Source of the DNA: Burkholderiales bacterium
Lineage (GTDB): Bacteria; Pseudomonadota; Gammaproteobacteria; Burkholderiales; Casimicrobiaceae
Direction: 5' to 3'
Assembly (NCBI GenBank): GCA_905339295.1
Contig: CAJPFI010000021.1
Coordinates: 186,001-250,000 of the forward strand
DNA: 64,000 bases
Part shown: one piece after another, positions 33,011 to 43,284 of the stretch
How the letters are laid out: the number at the start of each line of letters is the position of its first letter
Position numbering within the stretch: the first letter of the stretch is position 1
Program-made: the position numbers and the translations under genes
The notes under the pieces: model-generated
The model's input: the letters and a program-made list of their open reading frames with translations, nothing else
What the model was told of the DNA's origin: nothing
Databases searched by the model: none

Positions 33011-33264
33011 CGCGGACCGACGAGTACGGCCATGCGACGCGCCAACGCGCGTCCGTTCGCGTACGATTGTCGACTTCGTCGCCGCTTTCGACCAGTGCCT
33101 TGTCGCAGTGTGTCGCTGCAAGCAGGGCCATGAGAGTGTCTCGAGCACCGGGAACAGCGCCGTGCGTGGAAGATGCTCGCGGCGGGAGCATTCCGACGAA
33201 TGAGGCCCGCGTCATCGCGCGGAAAGCGCTTGCCGCCGCAACGGCGTAACCGATGAGGAAAGCG

Positions 33265-35673
33265 ATGAAGCCGACAACCGGGATCGAGAATGCAGGCACA
33301 ACGCCTGAGCCTGCATCCGAAGAACTCGCGCGTCTGGATGCATGGTGGCGCGCGGCCAACTACCTGTCGGTCGGGCAGATCTACCTGCTCGACAATCCGC
33401 TGCTGAACATCCCGCTCGAGACCGGGCACGTCAAGCCCCGGCTGCTCGGTCATTGGGGCACGACGCCCGGACTGAACTTCATCTACGTTCACCTGAACCG
33501 CATCATCGGCAAGTACGATGTCGATGCGATCTACATCGCGGGGCCCGGCCATGGCGGCCCGGCGCTGGTAGCCAACACCTGGCTCGAGGGCAGCTACAGC
33601 GAGGTCTATCCGGACGTTTCGCGCGACGCCGAAGGCATGCGGCGGCTGTTCCGGCAGTTTTCGTTTCCCGGCGGGGTGGGCAGCCATGTCACCGCCGAAA
33701 CGCCGGGCTCGATACACGAGGGCGGCGAGCTCGGCTACGCGCTCTCGCACGCTTACGGCGCCGCCTTCGACAACCCCGATCTCCTGGTCGCCTGCGTTGT
33801 GGGCGACGGCGAGGCCGAGACCGGGCCGCTCGCGGCCGCCTGGCATTCGAACAAGTTCCTCAATCCCGTGAGCGACGGCGCGGTCCTGCCGATCCTGCAT
33901 CTCAACGGCTACAAGATCGCCAGCCCCACCGTGCTCGCGCGCATTCCGCGCGCCGAGCTCGAAGCGCTGTTCGTGGGTTACGGTTACAGGCCGTACTTCG
34001 TCGAGGGATCCGAACCTGCGGCGATGCACCGGGAGATGGCAGCGACGCTGGATACCGTCATCGAGGAGATCCGCGCGATCCAGCGCGCGGCACGTGCCAG
34101 CGGGGTCGCGAAACGCGTGCGCTGGCCGATGATCGTGCTCAACACCCCGAAGGGATGGACGGGGCCGAAAGCCGTCGACGGCAGGATGATCGAAGGTTCC
34201 TGGCGCTCGCACCAGGTGCCGTTCGCCGACACCGCCAGCAATCGGGAGCACCTGAAGCTGCTCGAACAATGGATGAAGAGCTACCGGCCCGCGGAGCTGT
34301 TCGACGAACACGGCGCGCCGCGCCCGGAAATCGCCGCGCTCGCGCCGAGGGGTGCGCGCCGCATGGGATCGAATCCGCACGCCAACGGCGGACTGCTGCT
34401 CAGGGATCTCCGGCTGCCGGACTTTCGCGACTACGCCGTGGAAGTGCCGCTGCCCGGCGCGGTGACCGCCGAGGCGACGCGCGTGATGGGCGGCCTGCTG
34501 CGCGATGTGATGCGGCTGAACCTCGATACCCGCAACTTCCGTGTCGTCGGCCCGGACGAGACTGCCTCCAACCGCCTCGGCGCGCTGTTCGAGGCGACCG
34601 ATCGCACCTGGGTCGCCGAGCGCCTGCCGGAGGACGAGCACCTGGCGCCGGACGGAAGAGTCATGGAAATCCTCTCCGAGCACACCTGCCAGGGCTGGCT
34701 CGAAGGGTACCTGCTCACGGGCCGGCACGGGCTGTTCTCGTGCTACGAGGCGTTCATTCATATCGTCGCCTCGATGTTCAACCAGCACGCCAAGTGGCTC
34801 AAGGTCTGCAACGAGGTCGCGTGGCGGCGGCCGATCGCGTCGCTCAACATCCTGCTGACCTCGCACGTCTGGCGCCAGGATCACAACGGCTTCTCTCACC
34901 AGGATCCCGGCTTCATCGACCATGTGGTGAACAAGAAGGCCGACACCATCCGCGTGTTCCTGCCGCCCGACGCGAACACGCTGCTCTGCCTCACCGACTG
35001 GTGCCTGCGCTCGCGCAACTTCGTCAACGTGATCGTCGCCGGCAAGCAGCCGCAGGCGCAGTGGCTGGCCATGGACGCCGCGATCAGGCACTGCGCCGCC
35101 GGCATCGGCATCTTCGAGTGGGCGAGCAACGACCAGGAAGGCGAGCCCGACGTCGTGATGGCGTGCGCGGGCGACGTGCCGACGCTCGAGACGCTCGCTG
35201 CCGTGGACCTGCTTCGCCGACACCTGCCGTCGCTCAAGGTGCGGGTGATCAATGTCGTGGACCTGATGACCCTGCAACAGAAGGAAGAGCACCCGCATGG
35301 GCTGTCCGACCGCGACTTCGACACGCTGTTCACGACCGACAAGCCGGTCGTGTTCGCCTACCATGGCTACCCGTGGCTCATCCACCGGCTGACCTACCGG
35401 CGCACCAATCACCCGAACCTGCACGTGCGCGGCTACAAGGAGGAAGGCACCACGACCACGCCCTTCGACATGGCGGTTCTGAACGACCTGGACCGCTTCC
35501 ACCTGGTCGCGGACGTCGTCGACCGGGTGCCCGGCCTCGGCTACCGGGCCGCCTACCTGAAGCAGTTCCTGCGCGACAAGCTCATCGAGCATCGTCAGTA
35601 CATTCGCGCGCACGGTCAGGACATGCCGGAAATACGCGACTGGAAGTGGCCGGCCGGCGCGGCACAGGCCTGA
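33265..35673 (+). CDS. Xylulose-5-phosphate/fructose-6-phosphate phosphoketolase
   Basis: A TPP-dependent enzyme of 802 residues that splits sugar phosphates with inorganic phosphate to give acetyl phosphate. Family blocks: [13 protein letters not shown], the signature [33 protein letters not shown] (TPP/Mg site), [13 protein letters not shown] and the C-terminal [19 protein letters not shown]. The ATG at 33265 has GAGGAA 4-5 nt upstream; an ATG at 33253 has none. Full length, no breaks, although it follows a ruined ATPase gene. It may feed acetate/ATP metabolism under oxygen limitation; inference. Confidence 0.94.
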
Positions 35674-35863
35674 TCGGCACCGCGAATGACCCGACGGGTC
35701 GACGTCATCGCGGGGATGCCTTCCTGCCATCCGTTTTCCGGCAGCAGCCGTCGGAGATCGAATTTTCCCGACGCGGGAGGCGAGAGATGAACGGTTGTCG
35801 TCAGCTTTCCGCGGCGGCATCGCTCGCCGTCATCCCGGGATCGCATGCCGCGAGGGGGACCGA

Positions 35864-36766
35864 ATGATCGTGAATAGCGCGTCGGGTGCACTGGCGCTCG
35901 TCGTCGCCGTCGATGGGTCTGCCGATGCCGATGCGGCAGTGCGATGGGTTGCCGGACTTCATTCAGCGGGAATTCCGCTGCGCTGCGTGCTCGTCAACGC
36001 GCAAAAGCCGGTCATGTCGGGTGACGTGGGGGCGATCTCGCCCGCAAGCCACGTGATCGCCGAGCGTGAACGCAGCGCCGCCGAGATCCTCGAGCACGCG
36101 GGCGGCATCCTTCGAGCCGCTGGCGTGCGGTACGACCTGGACGAACGAATCGACGACCCCGTGACGGCTGTCGTGGCGTGCGCCGAGGCGCAGCGATGCG
36201 ACGCCATCGTCCTCGGCAGGCGGGGCCACGGGGCGTTGCGCGCAGCGCTCCTGGGGTCGGTATCGTCCGAGGTGGTGCGATGCTCGCGGGGTCCGGTCAT
36301 CATCGTCCACGCCGATGTCCCTGCACGATTTGACCCTCCGCTGCGTGTCCTGCTGGCCGCGGACGACTCCAAGGCGGCGATACGCGCGGCGGCGTTCGCA
36401 GCCCGACTCGCCGGCTCGGTCGCCGGGGGTGAAGTCCACGTCCTGCACGTGCATCCGGGCCTCACGGTGGCCGGCACCGTGCTGGGCCCGCGCGAGCATC
36501 TGCTAGAGCACTGGTCCGGAAACGCGTCGGAGCAGGTGTTTGCCTCGGTGCGCGGGATCCTCGAGCGGGCGGGTTGCACGTGCTTCACGCATCCGGTTCA
36601 AGGCGATGTTCCCGGCGAGGCGATCGTACGCGAGGCGGACAGGCTGGGCTGCGGAGTGATCGCCATGGGCACGCGCGGGCGCGGACCTGTCGTCGAACTG
36701 CTGCTCGGATCCGCCGCGCGGCACGTGGTGGAACACGCCCGCGTTCCACTCGTCGTGACGCGCTGA
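35864..36766 (+). CDS. Tandem universal stress protein (two UspA domains)
   Basis: A 300-residue protein with two UspA domains in a row (about 10-150 and 158-300). Each ends with the ATP-binding signature G-x2-G-x9-G(S/T): GRRGHGALRAALLGS and GTRGRGPVVELLLGS. The start at 35864 is preceded by GAGGGGGA; an ATG at 35795 opens a longer frame without similarity. It is 190 nt after phosphoketolase. Tandem Usp genes commonly sit in low-oxygen or acetate stress clusters. Confidence 0.9.
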   Translation: MIVNSASGALALVVAVDGSADADAAVRWVAGLHSAGIPLRCVLVNAQKPVMSGDVGAISPASHVIAERERSAAEILEHAGGILRAAGVRYDLDERIDDPVTAVVACAEAQRCDAIVLGRRGHGALRAALLGSVSSEVVRCSRGPVIIVHADVPARFDPPLRVLLAADDSKAAIRAAAFAARLAGSVAGGEVHVLHVHPGLTVAGTVLGPREHLLEHWSGNASEQVFASVRGILERAGCTCFTHPVQGDVPGEAIVREADRLGCGVIAMGTRGRGPVVELLLGSAARHVVEHARVPLVVTR

Positions 36767-37347
36767 CCACGGCGCCCGAAAAGGTCATCCGCTCGCCGGC
36801 GCTCGGCGAACCGCCAGCACGCCGCGCGCCCTTGGGTCGGGTCGCGATCCGCGGCGTGCCGCAGGTCGAGTCGCTGTCGGCGAGGAATCGCCGGACTTGC
36901 CGACAGGCGCCGGCGCGTGCCACCGATGGATGCCGTGAGATCCGGAGAGACACTTCCCGGTCGACACAGGCACTCGACGGGGAACGTGGATCGTCCCCCA
37001 AAGTCCCTGAACGACCTGGGCCCATCCCCACTCGATCATCAACGAGCCTTCCAAGCTGTTGATTGGCAAGGCACCGGGCGCTGGTTTGAAGATTTTTACC
37101 GTCACTTTAACGTCAAAGTGCTTAGCACCAGCATTGGCGCGGGTTTGCAGGCGATTCGGTCTGAAGTGACCTTTCGAGATCTATCGACATCTATCGACTC
37201 CCGCGACCATCGGCGACAGCATCGACGTGCGTCCATGTCGGTCAGGGACACGCCCAAGAAGGGCCGGGATCAAACGCCATAGGCTATTGTCCCTGCTCAC
37301 TTTTCCGCCAGTTTTTTTTGACGTCGGGGACACCCATCAAGTCCCGT
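36767..37347. other. Non-coding, locally A+T-rich stretch between the stress gene and the TOTE/AbiE cassette
   Basis: No convincing gene in 581 nt. The plus frame 36917-37282 has no recognised similarity. Composition drops sharply: in 37081-37140 only 27 of 60 bases are G or C, in a window that is otherwise very G+C-rich. Seen here: a near-perfect 18-bp dyad at 37103-37120 (CACTTT and AAAGTG arms), two tandem copies of ATCTATCGAC at 37179-37198, and a run of eight T near 37312. GGGACA boxes occur twice directly (GTCAGGGACAC near 37239, GTCGGGGACAC near 37323) and once inverted (TTGTCCCTG near 37288). It looks like worn mobile-element DNA. Confidence 0.6.
37022..37040. repeat. Degenerate copy of the guaA 3' end (possible attachment-site remnant)
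   Basis: CCCACTCGATC at 37027-37037 is identical, in the same orientation, to 41540-41550 inside the last codons of guaA. With flanks, 14 of 19 positions agree (37022-37040 against 41535-41553). The two copies bracket the abiE/TOTE cassette. The guaA 3' end is a known integration site of genomic islands. No integrase is present. Confidence 0.45.
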
Positions 37348-39777
37348 TCAGATGGGTCGTTTGAGGCAAGGCATGGCCTGCATAACGGGCGGCGGCTCGG
37401 CGATCCGGTAGCCCATCGCCCGGTAGCCGCGCTGGCGCTTGTCCCACATTCGCATCAAAGCCGGGTGGCCGGTATCCACGAAGTCGATGATCCGCACGCT
37501 GGCCTTGCTGGCGTGCTCCCGATGCAACCGGCCAGCGTATTGCTGTAACGTTCCCCTCCACGAGACGGGCATCGCCAAGACCATGGTGTCGAGGGGCGGA
37601 TGGTCGAATCCTTTGCCGACGAGCTTGCCGGTGGCCAGCAGAATGCGAGGCGAATCGGGTGGGAGCGCGTCGAGTTCTGCAATGAGCATGGCGCGTTGCT
37701 TTCTGGACATCCGCCCGTGAAGAACGAAGGGTAGCGGGACCTCGAAACCCAGGGCCGCCCGCATGGCTTCAAGGTGCGCGGTGCGCTCGGTCAGAACCAG
37801 CACCTTGCGCCCCTGATCGAACGCCGTTCTGACTTCTGCGGCGATTGCTGCCGTCCGTGATCGATCGTTGGCGAGGTGCCGAAACACCTCCTGAATCCCC
37901 GACTCCGGCGGCAGGTCAATGCGAGCAAGGCACGATCGAGGCAGCACCTGCAGGTCATGGGGGGTCTCAACGGGTCTCGCCGCCGTGTGCCGAATCGGTC
38001 CGCACTGCATGAAGATGATCGGTTGCTGACCGTCTCGGCGGATCGGCGTGGCGGTCAGGCCAAGCACGTACTTGGCCTTGCATCGCTTCAGGATGGCGTC
38101 GAACGACACCGCGCCGACGTGATGGCACTCGTCCACGATGACGTGGCCGTAGTTCTCGACGAGGGCACTGACCTCCCCTTGGCGGGACAGCGACTGCATC
38201 ACCGCGATGTCGATCTTGCTGGTGGGTTTCGCCGTGCCGCCTCCGATCGTGCCGACCACACCACCGCCAACGCCGAGAAAGGTCTGCAATCGCTCCTGCC
38301 ACTGCTTGAGCAGTTCGGTTCGATGCACCAGCACCAGGGTGTTCACGCCTCGGCGGGCGATCAGCGCGGCAGCGGTAACGGTCTTGCCGAATGCGGTCGG
38401 GGCACACAGCACGCCCACATCGTCACGCAGCATCGCGGCAACGGCGGCCTCCTGATCAGTTCGAAGCGTCCCTGCGAATCCCACATCAATCGGCTCACCG
38501 GTGTTGCGCTCGTCCCTGAAATCACAGTGGACTGCATTTTCACGCAGCAAGTCTTGCGCGGCATCGAAGCAGCCGCGCGGCAGTGCAATGTGACGGGGAT
38601 AGTTCTCCGCGCAGCCGATCACCCGGTGCTTGTCCCACACCGACAGCCGCATTGCCTGTGCCCGGTAGAACTCTGGGTTCTGAAACGCGGCAAGTCGGAT
38701 CAGGCGGTTGGCCAATGGCTGCGGAAGCTCCGCGTTCTCGAAATAGATGAGGTTCGCCAATGTCACCGTGAGCGCCTTCGGCATCACGCCCAGCATCTTC
38801 ACAGTCGGTACCGAAGTGCGCTTCCACGGCGTCGCCAGATCCTCAGCGTCGATAAAGGTCACGTCGAGAAGATGGACGCCGCCTGTGGCCCGAACGATCG
38901 TCGGCTCGATGTCGTGCGGCGACATCGGCTGGATCGATGCCAGGAACTCCCACTGGTCGGGGTTCGGTCGCAGATCGGAGTCGACAAACACAGTGCACCC
39001 GGCCTCCCGCGGCTTCTTCTGCAGCGGCAAGGCGATCAGATTGCCGAAGCCGCCCTTGGGCATGGTGTCCTGATTGGGAAACAGGCGATCGTAGGACGTG
39101 AGCTTCAGTTGCCGGGTGCGCGCGCAGGTGTGGCTGATGATGGCAGTGCCCATCCGACGCGCATCCCGCGCCGACACACGCTCGGCGAAGAAGATCCAGG
39201 CGTGCGCCCCGTTTCCCGAGCGGGAAGTCTCGATCGCAACCGGGACGCCGAGATCGGTGCACGAACCGGCGAAAGCGCGAACATCCTCTCTCCACTCGGC
39301 TTCGTCGAAATCGATCGCGAGGAAGTAGCAGCTGTCGTCCTCCAGCAGCGGGTAGACACCGATCGTGTGGTCACCGGCCAGGTGGGCGTAGATGGCAGCG
39401 TCCGAAAGCGGGATCAAAGAGCGATTCCGACAGTCTCCGCACTTGATTCGCGGCTTCTCGCATACTCCAGCGCGCCACTCGTTCGCGCAGGCAGGTGCGT
39501 AACCCGACTTGCCGGTCGTCTTGCTCTCCCAGCGCACGGGATAGACATCCGTGCGACCCCGAGACCGCCGGCGAAAGAGCGCCACTTTCGCCTCGGTGGA
39601 GAGTCGCGACGATTCGGCCTGCGGAGGAGAAGTTGTCCGTTCCGTCGCGCGACGCCACTCGATTCCGTTTGCCTCCAAGAGCGCGATCAGTCGCTCGTTC
39701 TCCGCCTGCAGCACGGCCAAGGACTCGGGCTCCGACGTCGATCGTTCGCTCGGCAGTGATCTCTCCGAAGCCGTCAT
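37348..39777 (-). CDS. TOTE-family AEP primase fused to an SF2 DEAD/DEAH helicase
   Basis: An 809-residue two-part protein. A short leucine-rich coiled coil (about 17-37) precedes an archaeo-eukaryotic-type primase. The primase has DVYPVRWE (77-84), four Cys (C97, C106, C113, C116) likely binding zinc, the catalytic AIDFD (D156, D158) and SRSGNGAHAWIFF (185-197). This matches the primase domain described for TOTE conflict systems. From about 430 a superfamily 2 helicase follows: APTAFGKT Walker A (459-466), DECHH (549-553), GLTATPIRRDG and a helicase C domain with QQYAGRLHRE. The ATG at 39777 overlaps the abiEii stop as ATGA; a longer frame upstream is abiEii out of frame. No nuclease domain is evident. 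A defence role is inference. Confidence 0.85.
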   Translation of the reverse strand: MTASERSLPSERSTSEPESLAVLQAENERLIALLEANGIEWRRATERTTSPPQAESSRLSTEAKVALFRRRSRGRTDVYPVRWESKTTGKSGYAPACANEWRAGVCEKPRIKCGDCRNRSLIPLSDAAIYAHLAGDHTIGVYPLLEDDSCYFLAIDFDEAEWREDVRAFAGSCTDLGVPVAIETSRSGNGAHAWIFFAERVSARDARRMGTAIISHTCARTRQLKLTSYDRLFPNQDTMPKGGFGNLIALPLQKKPREAGCTVFVDSDLRPNPDQWEFLASIQPMSPHDIEPTIVRATGGVHLLDVTFIDAEDLATPWKRTSVPTVKMLGVMPKALTVTLANLIYFENAELPQPLANRLIRLAAFQNPEFYRAQAMRLSVWDKHRVIGCAENYPRHIALPRGCFDAAQDLLRENAVHCDFRDERNTGEPIDVGFAGTLRTDQEAAVAAMLRDDVGVLCAPTAFGKTVTAAALIARRGVNTLVLVHRTELLKQWQERLQTFLGVGGGVVGTIGGGTAKPTSKIDIAVMQSLSRQGEVSALVENYGHVIVDECHHVGAVSFDAILKRCKAKYVLGLTATPIRRDGQQPIIFMQCGPIRHTAARPVETPHDLQVLPRSCLARIDLPPESGIQEVFRHLANDRSRTAAIAAEVRTAFDQGRKVLVLTERTAHLEAMRAALGFEVPLPFVLHGRMSRKQRAMLIAELDALPPDSPRILLATGKLVGKGFDHPPLDTMVLAMPVSWRGTLQQYAGRLHREHASKASVRIIDFVDTGHPALMRMWDKRQRGYRAMGYRIAEPPPVMQAMPCLKRPI

Positions 39778-40664
39778 TGCGACTGATTCCGATCTCGGGG
39801 CATCAGCAGCGCTGGATACCGCTTTGCACGCAATTCCTCGATGACCGCATCGGAGAGCTTCCATCTGTCTCCGCCGATTCGCGCGATCAACTCGGTCCAG
39901 ACGCGCTCGAACGCCTGGATCGCATCCGCATCGCTCCAGCGCACGCTCGCCGGCAACATCGGTGCGACGTCTTCGGTCAGGCGTCGCGTCAACTTCTCCA
40001 GCATGCGCTGCTCGGCCATCGCTCGCGTGATCGGCTTGCCCTCCAGAGCCAGGTAGTGGTCGAAGCAGGCGATGACTTTCTCCGGATCCAGCGGCAGCTG
40101 TTCGAGTCCCTGGCGCAGATCGAACAGGTCACGGTTCCTGCGCCGCTGCAGCAGCGCGCGCAGCTTCGTGCCGAACAGTTCCTCGGGCTCGTAGGAGGCG
40201 ATCTGCGCAGTTCCGCGGTACCAGTCGCTTTCCACGGCGAACGGATAGCGTCGAACACCAAACAAGCTCGCGTGTTCCCGAGTGTTGATCTCGACCTTCA
40301 GTTTGAGCGTCGCCTGCGCATCGATCTCGGGCGTGAACTTGAACACCAGGTGCATCGAGTGCCCGGCCTGCTCCCGGCTGCATTTCCCGAGCCACGACAG
40401 CGCCACGCGAATCGCGTCGACCGTGCCACCGATAGGCTCGGGTTGCGCCTGGACCAGATCGATATCCTCCGAGTAGCGCAGCGGCTGCTTGAAAAGCAGC
40501 TTGTGGATCGCCGTACCACCGCGGAATGCGATCTTCCCCGCCAACGCCGGCGCATTGAACAGGTCGCACAGGGCGCGACAGATGATCAGGTCCTGCTCGA
40601 CCTGCCGCAGGTCCGGCCACGGCGCTTTCGTACTCCACGCTTGCAGAAAGGCGGTGGGAATCAC
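39774..40664 (-). CDS. abiEii: AbiEii-family nucleotidyltransferase toxin
   Basis: A 296-residue protein of the AbiEii/AbiGii toxin family, DNA polymerase beta-like nucleotidyltransferases that arrest growth in phage-infected cells. FRGGTAIHK (GG at 49-50) and YSEDIDL (D67, D69) are the metal-binding motif; ELFGTKLRALLQRRRNRDLFDL is the family's second block. The start is GTG at 40664, overlapping the abiEi stop as GTGA. The stop overlaps the primase-helicase start as ATGA, so production of all three proteins is tied together. Confidence 0.9.
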   Translation of the reverse strand: MIPTAFLQAWSTKAPWPDLRQVEQDLIICRALCDLFNAPALAGKIAFRGGTAIHKLLFKQPLRYSEDIDLVQAQPEPIGGTVDAIRVALSWLGKCSREQAGHSMHLVFKFTPEIDAQATLKLKVEINTREHASLFGVRRYPFAVESDWYRGTAQIASYEPEELFGTKLRALLQRRRNRDLFDLRQGLEQLPLDPEKVIACFDHYLALEGKPITRAMAEQRMLEKLTRRLTEDVAPMLPASVRWSDADAIQAFERVWTELIARIGGDRWKLSDAVIEELRAKRYPALLMPRDRNQSQ

Positions 40665-41479
40665 TCCGCGATCTCCACCGCTTCATTGATCAGGAGCTTC
40701 CACCTTGGATTTCGCTCGCCAGACTGGGCCAAAGCCTTCACGAGCGGCCTGACGGACGGATCGAGCGGCAGTGCGGTCCTGGCGCGCTTCACGAAGGCTT
40801 GCAGCGCATCGGCCTGGCGCGCGTGTCCCGCCAGATCGAGCAGGTAGCCAAGCCGGCGGACCGCCGAGTTCTCGTAGGCGCCGGCCGCCTTCTGCAGCAG
40901 GCGCGGTCTGGCCTTGGCGCCGACGTCCTTGACGATCTGAGCGACGCTGCTGATGCCAGCTGCCTTGTGGAAGTAGCGCACGCTGTCGAGCAGCGTCAGC
41001 TCGACGCCAGCCACCGTGGCGAAGCCGGCGTCGCTCTTCATCTGGTCCACCAACGACGACTGATTGACCTGACTGAATGCGTCCGGACCCTGATAAAGGA
41101 ACTGCAGGCGATGGCGACCCAGATCGAAGTTCCGCAACTGCCTCGGGACGACGACCTGGAAGACCATGCTGGCCTGGTGCGAGGCGCCGTGGAATGCCGC
41201 CGCGCGCAGCAACGAAACGCGGTAGTCGATCCCCTGATGCTTCATCAGCGGGTCGATCCACTTGACAGGGTCGGGCGCGCCGGCGACCCGATCTTCCGGG
41301 CGCAGGATGAGATAGAAGCCGTGCCTGGGATTCGCCAGTCGGCGATTGTTGATCGCGCGCGTGATCGCCGCCGCCAGTGCCGACGGCTTCAGGCCAAGCG
41401 CAGCGACTACCTCATCCCGGGAGAAGTAGGCTCGGCCGCGTGCGAGCAGATCGTCGAGGTAGGACTCGAGGGAAGCCAT
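40661..41479 (-). CDS. abiEi: AbiEi-family antitoxin and autorepressor
   Basis: A 272-residue protein. The N terminus MASLESYLDDLLARGRAYFSRDEVVAALGLKPSALAAAITR is the winged helix-turn-helix of AbiEi antitoxins, followed by RRLANPRHGFYLILRPEDR and the larger C-terminal antitoxin domain. AbiEi proteins silence AbiEii in a type IV manner and repress their own operon by binding inverted repeats. Exactly such a repeat overlaps its promoter here. The ATG lies 5 nt after the -10 box, so the message should be leaderless. Confidence 0.9.
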   Translation of the reverse strand: MASLESYLDDLLARGRAYFSRDEVVAALGLKPSALAAAITRAINNRRLANPRHGFYLILRPEDRVAGAPDPVKWIDPLMKHQGIDYRVSLLRAAAFHGASHQASMVFQVVVPRQLRNFDLGRHRLQFLYQGPDAFSQVNQSSLVDQMKSDAGFATVAGVELTLLDSVRYFHKAAGISSVAQIVKDVGAKARPRLLQKAAGAYENSAVRRLGYLLDLAGHARQADALQAFVKRARTALPLDPSVRPLVKALAQSGERNPRWKLLINEAVEIAE

Positions 41480-41484
41480 ACCAG

Positions 41485-41527
41485 ATCATACGCAAAACGC
41501 GACAAATAGTCAAGAGTTTTGCATATG
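41485..41527 (-). promoter_or_regulatory. Promoter and AbiEi-type operator of the abiE-primase/helicase operon
   Basis: On the minus strand TTGACT (41513-41508) and TATGAT (41490-41485) are 17 nt apart, a near-consensus sigma-70 promoter. Inverted arms CATATGCAAAAC (41527-41516) and GTTTTGCGTATG (41498-41487) agree at 11 of 12 positions and are 17 nt apart. One abuts the -35 and the other overlaps the -10 by 4 nt. Repressor binding there would block RNA polymerase. Only 5 nt separate the -10 from the abiEi ATG, so transcription should begin at the start codon. Confidence 0.75.
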
Positions 41528-41534
41528 CTTTGGG

Positions 41535-41553
41535 TCACTCCCACTCGATCGTG
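41535..41553. repeat. guaA 3'-end segment repeated at 37022-37040
   Basis: The last codons of guaA (IEWE-stop on the minus strand). The core CCCACTCGATC at 41540-41550 recurs exactly at 37027-37037. Together the two copies would be the left and right borders of a 4.5-kb insert that leaves guaA intact. The abiE operator starts 7 nt beyond the guaA stop codon. Confidence 0.45.
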
Positions 41554-43127
41554 GCCGGCGGCTTGCTCGACACGTCGTAGACGACGCGGTTGATCCCGCG
41601 CACCTCGTTGGTGATGCGGTTCGACACCCGCGCCAGGAGGTCGTGCGGCAGCTGCGCCCAGTGCGCAGTCATGAAGTCGGTGGTCTGGACCGCTCGCAGC
41701 GCGACCGCGTGCTCGTAGGTGCGGCCGTCGCCCATGACGCCGACCGACCGGATCGGCAGGAATACCGCGAACGCCTGCGCCGTCAGGTCGTACCACGACG
41801 TCCCGCTCGCGTCGCGCGCGGCCCGCAACTCGTCGATGAAGATCGCGTCGGCGCGGCGCAGGAGCTCGGCGTACTCGCGCCTGACCTCGCCCAGGATCCG
41901 CACGCCCAGCCCCGGTCCCGGGAACGGGTGGCGGAACACCATCTCGCGCGGCAGCCCGAGTTCCAGGCCCAGCTCCCGCACCTCGTCCTTGAAAAGCTCG
42001 CGCAACGGCTCGAGGAGACCGAGGTGCAGCGTTTCCGGCAGCCCGCCGACGTTGTGGTGCGACTTGATCGTGTGCGCCTTCTTGGTCTTCGCGCCAGCGC
42101 TCTCGATCACGTCCGGGTAGATCGTTCCCTGCGCGAGCCACTTCGCGCGCGGCAGCTTCGCCGCCTCGCGCTGGAACACGTCGATGAACAGCTTCCCGAT
42201 GACCTTGCGCTTGGCTTCGGGATCGTCGACGCCCTCGAGCGCCGACAGGAACTCGTCCGAGGCGTCGACGTGGATCACGTGCACGCCGAGGTTGCGCGCG
42301 AACGTGTCCATCACCTGCACCGCCTCGTTCTGGCGCAGCAGGCCGTGATCGACGAACACGCAGGTGAGCTTCGCGCCGATCGCGCGGTGGATCAGCGCCG
42401 CGGCGACCGACGAATCCACGCCGCCCGACAGCCCGAGGATCACCTCGTCGTCGCCCGCCCTGGCGCGGATCGATTCGACCGCCTCGTCGACGTAGGCGTG
42501 CATGTTCCAGTCCGCGCCGCAGCCGCAGATCTCGTGCGCGAAGCGCGCGAGGATCGCCTTGCCCTGCGGGGTGTGCGTGACCTCGGGATGGAACTGCACC
42601 CCGTAGAAGCGCCGCGACTCGTCCTCGATCGCCGCGATCGCGCAGGCGTCCGACGATCCGATCTGGCGGAAGCCGGGCGGCATCGCGGTGACCTTGTCGC
42701 CGTGGCTCATCCACACGTCCATCAGCCCGTGGCCGTCCGCGTTGGTCCGGTCCTGGATGCCGCGGAACAGCGGCGAGTGCCCGCGCGCGCGCACTTCCGC
42801 GTAGCCGAACTCGCGAACGTTCCCCGCCTCGACCGTGCCGCCCAGCTCGCGCGCCATCGTCTGCATGCCGTAGCAGATGCCGAGCACCGGGACACCGAGC
42901 GACCAGACCGCGCCGGGCGCGCGTCCCGCGCCCTCGTCGTAGACGCTCGCGTGGCTGCCCGACAGGATCACGCCCTTCGCGCCGAATCCGCGCACGAAGC
43001 CGTCGTCGACGTCGTGCGGATGGATCTCGCAGTAGACGTGCGATTCACGCAGCCGGCGCGCGATGAGCTGCGTCACCTGCGAGCCGAAGTCGAGGATCAG
43101 GATGCGGTCGTGCTGGGCGGCGGACAT
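41535..43127 (-). CDS. guaA: GMP synthase (glutamine-hydrolysing)
   Basis: A 530-residue enzyme making GMP from XMP, ATP and glutamine. The class I amidotransferase domain has Cys85 in LGICYGMQ and the His/Glu of [10 protein letters not shown]. The ATP pyrophosphatase domain has the P-loop [13 protein letters not shown], and the C-terminal dimer domain ends [18 protein letters not shown]. The ATG at 43127 matches the family start ([19 protein letters not shown]). It follows guaB by 157 nt on the same strand. Complete in spite of the insertion behind it. Confidence 0.96.
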
Positions 43128-43284
43128 GGCGGGTCGGATCGCGGATCGTGGATCGCGGGGCCTCGCGCGCATCGGCGTCGCGGTGGCGACGAGGTCGGGA
43201 GAGCCGGTTCGTGCAGGTCGACGGCGCACCGGTGCGGCGCCGGGCACCCCCGACTCCCCGGTTCCCGCCCTGCGTTCCCTGCCC

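Follow-up and report, generated by a model that had tools for sequence, protein, structure and literature searches.

An abiEi-abiEii-primase-helicase operon at the guaA gene of a Burkholderiales bacterium: a recurrent pairing in a predicted integrase-less cassette

Do an AbiE toxin-antitoxin pair and a primase-helicase encoded in the same operon act together, or do they merely share a promoter? The question is raised by a stretch of 64,000 nucleotides (the window) from a Burkholderiales bacterium (assembly GCA_905339295.1, contig CAJPFI010000021.1, positions 186,001 to 250,000), where three open frames on the minus strand, directly after guaA, encode an AbiEi antitoxin, an AbiEii nucleotidyltransferase toxin and an AEP-TOTE primase fused to a superfamily 2 (SF2) helicase. 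A first-pass annotation, made from the letters alone, had read these genes as a possible composite phage-defence system. The explanation preferred here, on which our confidence is evenly balanced, is that they are transcribed as one unit whose two arms are separable and which moves as an integrase-less cassette of the guaA site; phage defence and cassette mobility are its predicted roles. What was a curious gene neighbourhood becomes in this way a delimited unit with testable borders, and a clean setting in which to ask the question above. The operon comprises the following genes and domains (aa, amino acids):

40661..41479, minus strand: abiEi, antitoxin and transcriptional regulator, 272 aa (PF09407, 68.6 bits; PADLOC AbiEi, 4.4e-91)
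39774..40664, minus strand: abiEii, nucleotidyltransferase toxin, 296 aa, GTG start (PF08843, 106.9 bits; motifs GG49-50 and D67/D69)
37348..39777, minus strand: AEP-TOTE primase fused to SF2 helicase, 809 aa, ATG start (PF22548, 326.6 bits; ResIII; Helicase_C)
38905..39588, minus strand: AEP primase domain of that protein, residues 64-291 (D156/D158 in 111 of 111 aligned proteins)
37519..38469, minus strand: SF2 helicase of that protein, residues 437-753 (K465 in 110 of 111 aligned proteins, D549/E550 in 111 of 111)

The AbiE identity of the first two proteins, as originally assigned, is borne out by Pfam and PADLOC models alike. AbiEi matches PF09407 above the cut-off (E-value 8.4e-19) and the PADLOC AbiEi model over residues 3-270, its N-terminal match to PF13338 being below the cut-off (17.7 bits vs 25), and AbiEii matches PF08843 (2e-30) and the PADLOC AbiEii model (1.3e-98). 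The third protein matches AEP-TOTE (PF22548) at 1.1e-97 (cut-off 27 bits), followed by ResIII and Helicase_C, and is the sole AEP-TOTE match in its genome; its longest open reading frame begins at 39864, and the start that recurs among relatives is the ATG at 39777. The three genes run in one direction with 4-nucleotide (nt) overlaps, GTGA at the abiEi/abiEii junction and ATGA at the abiEii/primase-helicase junction, just as first described, and the catalytic residues then named (GG49-50, D67 and D69 of AbiEii, D156 and D158 of the primase) are correct. The primase-domain cysteines C97, C106, C113 and C116 are each found in 109 of 109 letters of the homologue alignment, K465 is the Walker A lysine of the helicase, and the ratio of non-synonymous to synonymous substitution rates (dN/dS) lies between 0.105 and 0.328 across the gene pairs compared. 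In the model of the protein (mean predicted local distance difference test score 77, predicted template modelling score 0.62) the best fold matches are chains of T4 UvsW and XPB, with template modelling scores to the query that reach about 0.4 for a protein of which the helicase is one part. Another contig of the same genome carries a further AbiEii gene (G000:C4:63294-63980), whose Pfam score is higher (158.5 bits).

Whether the adjacency recurs was examined in 399 genomes of the window's order (G-numbered loci) and in a wider genome collection, from which the best 80 of 564 relatives were taken (L-numbered loci), a choice biased to close relatives. In the order sample, AEP-TOTE was matched in 34 genomes and AbiEii in 167. 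By eye, at least 7 of 25 AEP-TOTE genes (E <= 1e-30) lie directly downstream of a same-strand AbiEii among the matches listed, six of them (G000, G015, G538, G456, G751, G750) next to the window's AbiE subfamily and one (G656) next to another; the primase-helicase of G015, present in two pieces, counts as one among the 25. This count is a lower bound, because AbiEii matches were listed down to E ~1e-26 and three of the 25 genes (G433, G639, G648) begin at a contig end. Searching with the window's own AbiEii gave a match in 11 of the 399 genomes. All six copies at 82-100% identity have the primase-helicase next to them, broken in G015 and G750 and cut by the contig end in G456; copies at 74% (G577, L164) and 71% (G668, L163) have none beside them, a contig end truncates the copy at 79% (G561), and neither genome with a more distant copy (40% and 35%) belongs to the AEP-TOTE genome set.

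Taken over both collections, an AbiEii of the same subfamily stands directly before a primase-helicase in 10 distinct loci (window, L016, L019, L020, L021, L039, L061, L062, L144, L147), same-contig duplicates being set aside (L126 = L019, which is still counted in the upstream-neighbour tally below, L146 = L021, L145 = L062; L013, on the same contig as L038, was dropped). The first-pass annotation had counted the lack of any other genome with this adjacency among the outcomes that would make it a chance neighbourhood, and since the adjacency recurs, that refutation failed. It had also asked after conservation of the overlap, and here the ATGA is found in 7 of the 10 loci, with a short gap in L039, L061 and L144, and the abiEi/abiEii overlap is kept in all nine loci with sequence (contig ends hide abiEi in L039 and leave only its end in L062). 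The identities of AbiEii and of the primase-helicase are correlated, with r = 0.94 over 28 pairs from 8 loci without L091, and r = 0.91 over 36 pairs with it, the pairs not being independent in either case. The pairing of AbiE with the primase-helicase is real and recurrent, which does not oblige them to function as a single machine.

The strongest new result goes beyond the earlier annotation and lies outside its coordinates. A unit of ~4.5 kb, with GAGTGGG sites at both borders and one of them inside the host gene (att, attachment site), has the operon as its sole recognised cargo:

41535..43247, minus strand: guaA (GMP synthase; PF00958, PF00117), host gene, with the insertion site at its 3' end
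41539..41546, minus strand: left att core GAGTGGGA, lying within the 3' end of guaA (by alignment, and as the guaA core published in PMC9376610)
37027..37046, minus strand: right att-like site CTCGTTGATGATCGAGTGGG at the distal cassette end (core GAGTGGGG at 37026-37033)

According to the accessible part of that report, GAGTGGGA at the guaA 3' end is the integration core of GIsul2, and the GIsul2 integrase also mobilises the CR2-sul2 unit (PMC9376610). In the window and in L020 this sequence is the guaA 3' end itself, and it stands ~60 nt before the abiEi start in all 8 of the cassettes for which sequence upstream exists (window, L016, L019, L020, L021, L061, L144, L147); the core is not in the upstream sequence of the three other AbiE loci aligned (L163, L164, L091). 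The two cores of the window have the same orientation and differ in the last base (GAGTGGGG vs GAGTGGGA), and the right site CTCGTTGATGATCGAGTGGG shows 1 to 3 changes relative to the sequence before abiEi in L016, L019, L021, L144 and L147, as found with a search pattern derived from the window. Between the two sites of the window our own gene caller found abiEi, abiEii, the primase-helicase gene and an unsupported 98-aa frame, and no integrase. The G+C content of the cassette is 0.629, vs 0.709 and 0.698 in the 10-kb flanks.

The arrangement is not confined to the window. A primase-helicase operon directly follows guaA, in the same direction, in seven loci (window, L020, L055, L079, L151, L157, L161), and a second att-like copy lies beyond the operon in five of the seven, at 4.5 kb in the window, 4.0 kb in L079, 6.1 kb in both L151 and L157, and 3.5 kb in L161. 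In L130 a short primase-helicase copy in the opposite direction lies between two att-like sites beyond the guaA site. The genes of ~520 aa that precede the primase-helicase in L151, L157 and L161 had been considered as transposases and are guaA; the gene upstream of the L058 primase-helicase is IS66. A scan of 138 loci with the 13-base pattern AT[CT]GAGTGGGA[AG]T gave 21 matches that run the same way as the primase-helicase and a single one that runs against it, with no match in five Markov shuffles; seven of the 21 are guaA's own 3' ends and 14 lie elsewhere. Of 359 genomes of the order, 160 contain the 15-base pattern ATYGAGTGGGARTGA, a result that guaA by itself would lead one to expect; the reversed pattern, taken as a control, was matched in two genomes. 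By our own count, 17 genomes hold two copies of ATYGAGTGGGARTGA, and among these G468, G521, G538 and G750 are primase-helicase genomes, while G682 has a fragment match only.

Other cargo is found at the same site. Units between two ATYGAGTGGGARTGA copies and lacking a primase-helicase carry another AbiE pair (L174), a Fic gene (L175) or other genes (L176), and so the unit is better described as site-type, with the primase-helicase as a recurrent cargo and not a universal core. No integrase was recognised among the scanned genes of L174 and L175, part of the genes having been scanned; for all guaA-site units other than the window's, the Pfam scan covered some of the genes, and for this reason the term integrase-less refers there to gene lists. 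Larger elements do have an integrase beside guaA (L177, by Pfam, and L183). In G015 an integrase gene follows guaA, and an AbiE cassette with an att core stands ~100 kb further in the same direction. L144 has an array of a primase-helicase (47% identical to the window's), an att site, an abiEi-abiEii-primase-helicase operon with three more genes, and another att site; its two tandem primase-helicases are 47% and 78% identical to that of the window.

From these arrangements a wider proposal can be made, which we regard as tentative and on balance doubtful: the guaA 3' ends of Burkholderiales and other betaproteobacteria would collect tandem, integrase-less, GAGTGGG-bordered defence cassettes, in which the primase-helicase would be frequent, toxins would be swapped before it, and an AbiEi would regulate the whole as one response. 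Under this proposal the tandem guaA cassettes would be the tyrosine-integrase counterpart of integron cassettes, and candidate arrays would be L144, L130 (guaA, att, att, unit with the short primase-helicase, att) and G015. If guaA cassettes are mobilised in trans, they would offer toxin and defence genes a compact route of spread that does not require carrying an integrase.

As regards expression, a promoter-like site and an inverted repeat precede abiEi:

41485..41513, minus strand: sigma-70-like promoter TTGACT-17-TATGAT of the operon (1 match in 37000-41700; mean in shuffles 0.6)
41487..41527, minus strand: inverted repeat CATATGCAAAAC ... GTTTTGCGTATG around the promoter, candidate AbiEi operator (by eye)

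In systems of the AbiE type, AbiEi represses its own synthesis by binding an inverted repeat at the promoter. The repeat of the window is largely kept in eight AbiE-primase-helicase loci and is weaker in L163, L164 and L091. All three genes lie behind a single promoter-like site overlapped by this repeat, to which AbiEi probably binds, so that AbiEi control probably extends to the primase-helicase. The gene architecture is observed directly, and co-transcription of the three genes and repression of the whole operon by AbiEi are what it predicts. By analogy with the AbiE type, AbiEi would restrain the AbiEii toxin, and relief of the repression would lead to growth arrest and would help to keep the cassette; an addiction function of the AbiE pair, already suggested in the first pass, is possible. 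The primase-helicase would rise at the same time, and with an intact primase active site and an XPB/UvsW-like translocase it might act alone on the nucleic acid of incoming replicons where this is branched or primed. The two arms would be co-regulated and co-mobile and still separable, with no locked pair of sensor and effector, and movement of the cassette would need a guaA-type tyrosine integrase supplied from elsewhere.

Separability of the arms shows in the neighbours of the primase-helicase, a gene that closes many defence and toxin operons while its partners change. Within 150 nt, our own gene caller placed a same-strand gene upstream in 82 of 113 loci and downstream in 34 of 116 (Fisher p 5e-11; the two locus sets overlap without being identical, and the loci are related), which indicates that the primase-helicase tends to be the last gene of its operon. 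Partner labels come from our own gene caller with Pfam on one representative per cluster, the clusters taking genes up to 700 nt away. The upstream neighbour is often another defence or toxin gene, and the clusters include RhuM, YhcG nuclease, HsdR, HsdS, McrC, BrxL, a YgjP-like protease, Schlafen AlbA, HipA, ParE, PIN, Sir2 and helix-turn-helix proteins, as well as two other AbiE subfamilies, another nucleotidyltransferase and an all-helical protein of 181 aa. On a tree of 111 primase-helicases, a quick tree with several long branches, 20 upstream labels, 'none' and 19 kinds of partner, require 58 changes, against a minimum possible of 19 and a shuffled mean of 69, a value as low being reached in 0 of 200 shuffles; partners have, on these figures, been exchanged often yet non-randomly. 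The change counts are inflated, because L022 and L158, which start at contig ends, and all loci with guaA upstream were labelled 'none', and leaving this label out gives 39 changes.

The AbiE label itself occupies seven rows of the tree with six changes, three of which are forced by the starred branches, and the proteins with the window's AbiE form two supported groups (100 and 99 in the Shimodaira-Hasegawa-like approximate likelihood ratio test), the second of which also includes L055 and L049, both without that AbiE. The tree is compatible with one acquisition of the window-type AbiE beside the primase-helicase or with two. Three of the 10 AbiE cassettes have a broken gene. The primase-helicase is split by an insertion in L016, and in L147 its similarity stops at about residue 170, with abiEi and abiEii open in both; in L020 abiEi is split by an insertion, and abiEii and the primase-helicase are open. 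Partner exchange, AbiE pairs without a primase-helicase and damaged cassettes together disfavour strict interdependence.

These observations bear directly on the rival explanations. That the genes met by chance inside a defence island, with no lasting link, is very improbable: the primase-helicase does have many neighbours, but the same order in 10 loci, the kept overlaps and the correlated identities rule out chance adjacency. A single interlocked abortive-infection system, in which the primase-helicase would detect or process invading nucleic acid and AbiEii would thereupon be released to arrest growth, is unlikely. It would account for the kept junctions, for the gene next to AbiEii in all six close copies, for the correlation of 0.94 and for the conserved catalytic residues, and two further AbiE subfamilies stand directly before a primase-helicase (PF08843 with AbiEi_4 in L115 by Pfam and in L042 and L121 by cluster, and with AbiEi_3 in L148); however, unrelated partners occupy the same upstream place, AbiE occurs without a primase-helicase in L163 and L164, and it stays open where the primase-helicase is broken (L016, L147). 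The composite system first proposed is, accordingly, only partly supported, since the recurrent adjacency and the correlated identities speak for it and the promiscuity of the primase-helicase and the AbiE pairs at 71-74% identity without one speak against it, and its strongest form, one interdependent machine, is not supported in view of the 19 partner kinds, the lone AbiE of L163 and L164 and the damage in L016, L147 and L020.

It is also unlikely that the primase-helicase is a replication or maintenance protein of the mobile unit, with AbiE and other toxin pairs as addiction cargo and any antiphage effect secondary. AEP primases fused to helicases do occur in mobile elements, as stated in the accessible part of a published article (PMC5862659), guaA-site units combine the primase-helicase with changing small neighbours (L079, L151, L157, L161, L144), plasmid records match the protein (91 with >=80% of it covered, 326 with any match), and an integrase, resolvase or transposase adjoins it in some loci. 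At the same time, other guaA-site units do without it (L174 holds another AbiE, L175 a Fic gene), and in many loci it is the final gene of a defence or toxin operon on the chromosome; both facts speak against a maintenance role. A phage origin was rejected: pattern-based scans of IMG/VR, of the kind that finds close relatives, gave four contigs for the primase-helicase and none for AbiEii.

The explanation by a co-transcribed, guaA-borne cassette with two separable arms has its own difficulties. The retention of the primase-helicase beside every close AbiEii copy and the correlated identities weigh against it, because a tighter functional bond would predict the same. The promoter match taken alone does not stand out from the shuffles, and the right site of the window leaves the consensus after its core. 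L020 and L055 have no right-hand att-like site, and the stretches fetched from relatives did not include an unoccupied guaA site followed by the flank seen in the window (guaA was present, the window's downstream genes were not beside it, and two of the five stretches were ~1 kb or less); mobility is for these reasons deduced from the repeats. The guaA-site copies in L151, L157 and L161 are called in pieces and that of L130 is short, which suggests that many such copies may be decaying. Lastly, residue 722 of the window protein is K, where 109 of 110 aligned homologues have E, and the window's helicase may be impaired by this replacement of a near-invariant residue.

Compared with known systems, the locus combines familiar parts. 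It resembles the AbiE type IV toxin-antitoxin in both proteins, the gene order, the 4-nt overlap, the nucleotidyltransferase motifs and the inverted repeat at the promoter, and differs from it by the primase-helicase gene overlapping abiEii downstream and by the guaA-type att borders. TOTE conflict systems are named after TPR, OB, TBP and Effector (Aravind, Iyer et al. 2022, as quoted in the accessible part of PMC12458937), and the first-pass assignment to them holds for the AEP-TOTE domain fused to an SF2 helicase and not beyond it. A search with PF00352 found no TBP in the whole window genome (4 of 14 control genomes matched, all archaea), which rules out a full TOTE system, and Pfam found no TPR or OB in the three operon proteins and five neighbours, to which that search was limited. 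With the GIsul2 and CR2-sul2 islands the locus shares the insertion gene and the GAGTGGGA core, and with CR2-sul2 also the flanking att sites and the apparent dependence on an integrase that the unit does not seem to encode (for CR2-sul2, on our reading of PMC9376610); unlike them, it has toxin and primase-helicase cargo, measures ~4.5 kb (3.5-6.1 kb in four relatives) and is predicted to be mobile from its repeats, and unlike complete guaA genomic islands it has no recognised integrase of its own beside guaA.

P4-like satellites resemble the window's unit in carrying a primase-helicase and exchangeable defence genes within a small integrated element, and the window's unit differs from them by the lack of a recognised integrase and by its insertion at guaA. 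Each of the components (AbiE, the AEP-TOTE domain, guaA islands) has been described before, and within the mainly open-access literature searched, as far as its accessible parts extend, neither an AbiE-primase-helicase unit nor guaA defence cassettes are described.

Some further genes recur beside the primase-helicase. The 181-aa protein mentioned above, all-helical in its model (L075:6466-7011), has 31 cluster members, is the first or second gene upstream, and often overlaps the primase-helicase by 8 nt, after RhuM or type I restriction-modification genes; it had no PDB match at E <= 0.001, and its match to DUF6155 is weak and below the cut-off. A family of ~386 aa, with no Pfam match in the scanned members and often accompanied by a gene of ~107 aa, is found in L055 (9410-10576), L031, L049, L127, L144, L151 and L157, and, by eye, upstream in L012 and L059. 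An SNF2-family helicase of ~820 aa with a CxC...CxH motif (by eye) adjoins the primase-helicase in several loci, downstream in L019 (5382-7853), L020 (9454-11940), L021 (9454-11955), L022, L061, L081, L133 and L148 and upstream in L114, and overlaps it by 4 nt in L019-L021; the AbiE cassette of some lineages may include it as a fourth gene. The window genome lacks it, with partial matches of <=37% identity only. The possibility that the window holds a truncated four-gene operon was rejected, as its primase-helicase has a C-terminal tail that aligns to residue 809 (with L081) and 803 (with L016), and loss of an SNF2 gene is, with this tail intact in the alignments, unsupported. Just past the right border of the cassette (33253-36766) lie a phosphoketolase gene and then a gene with two universal stress protein matches.

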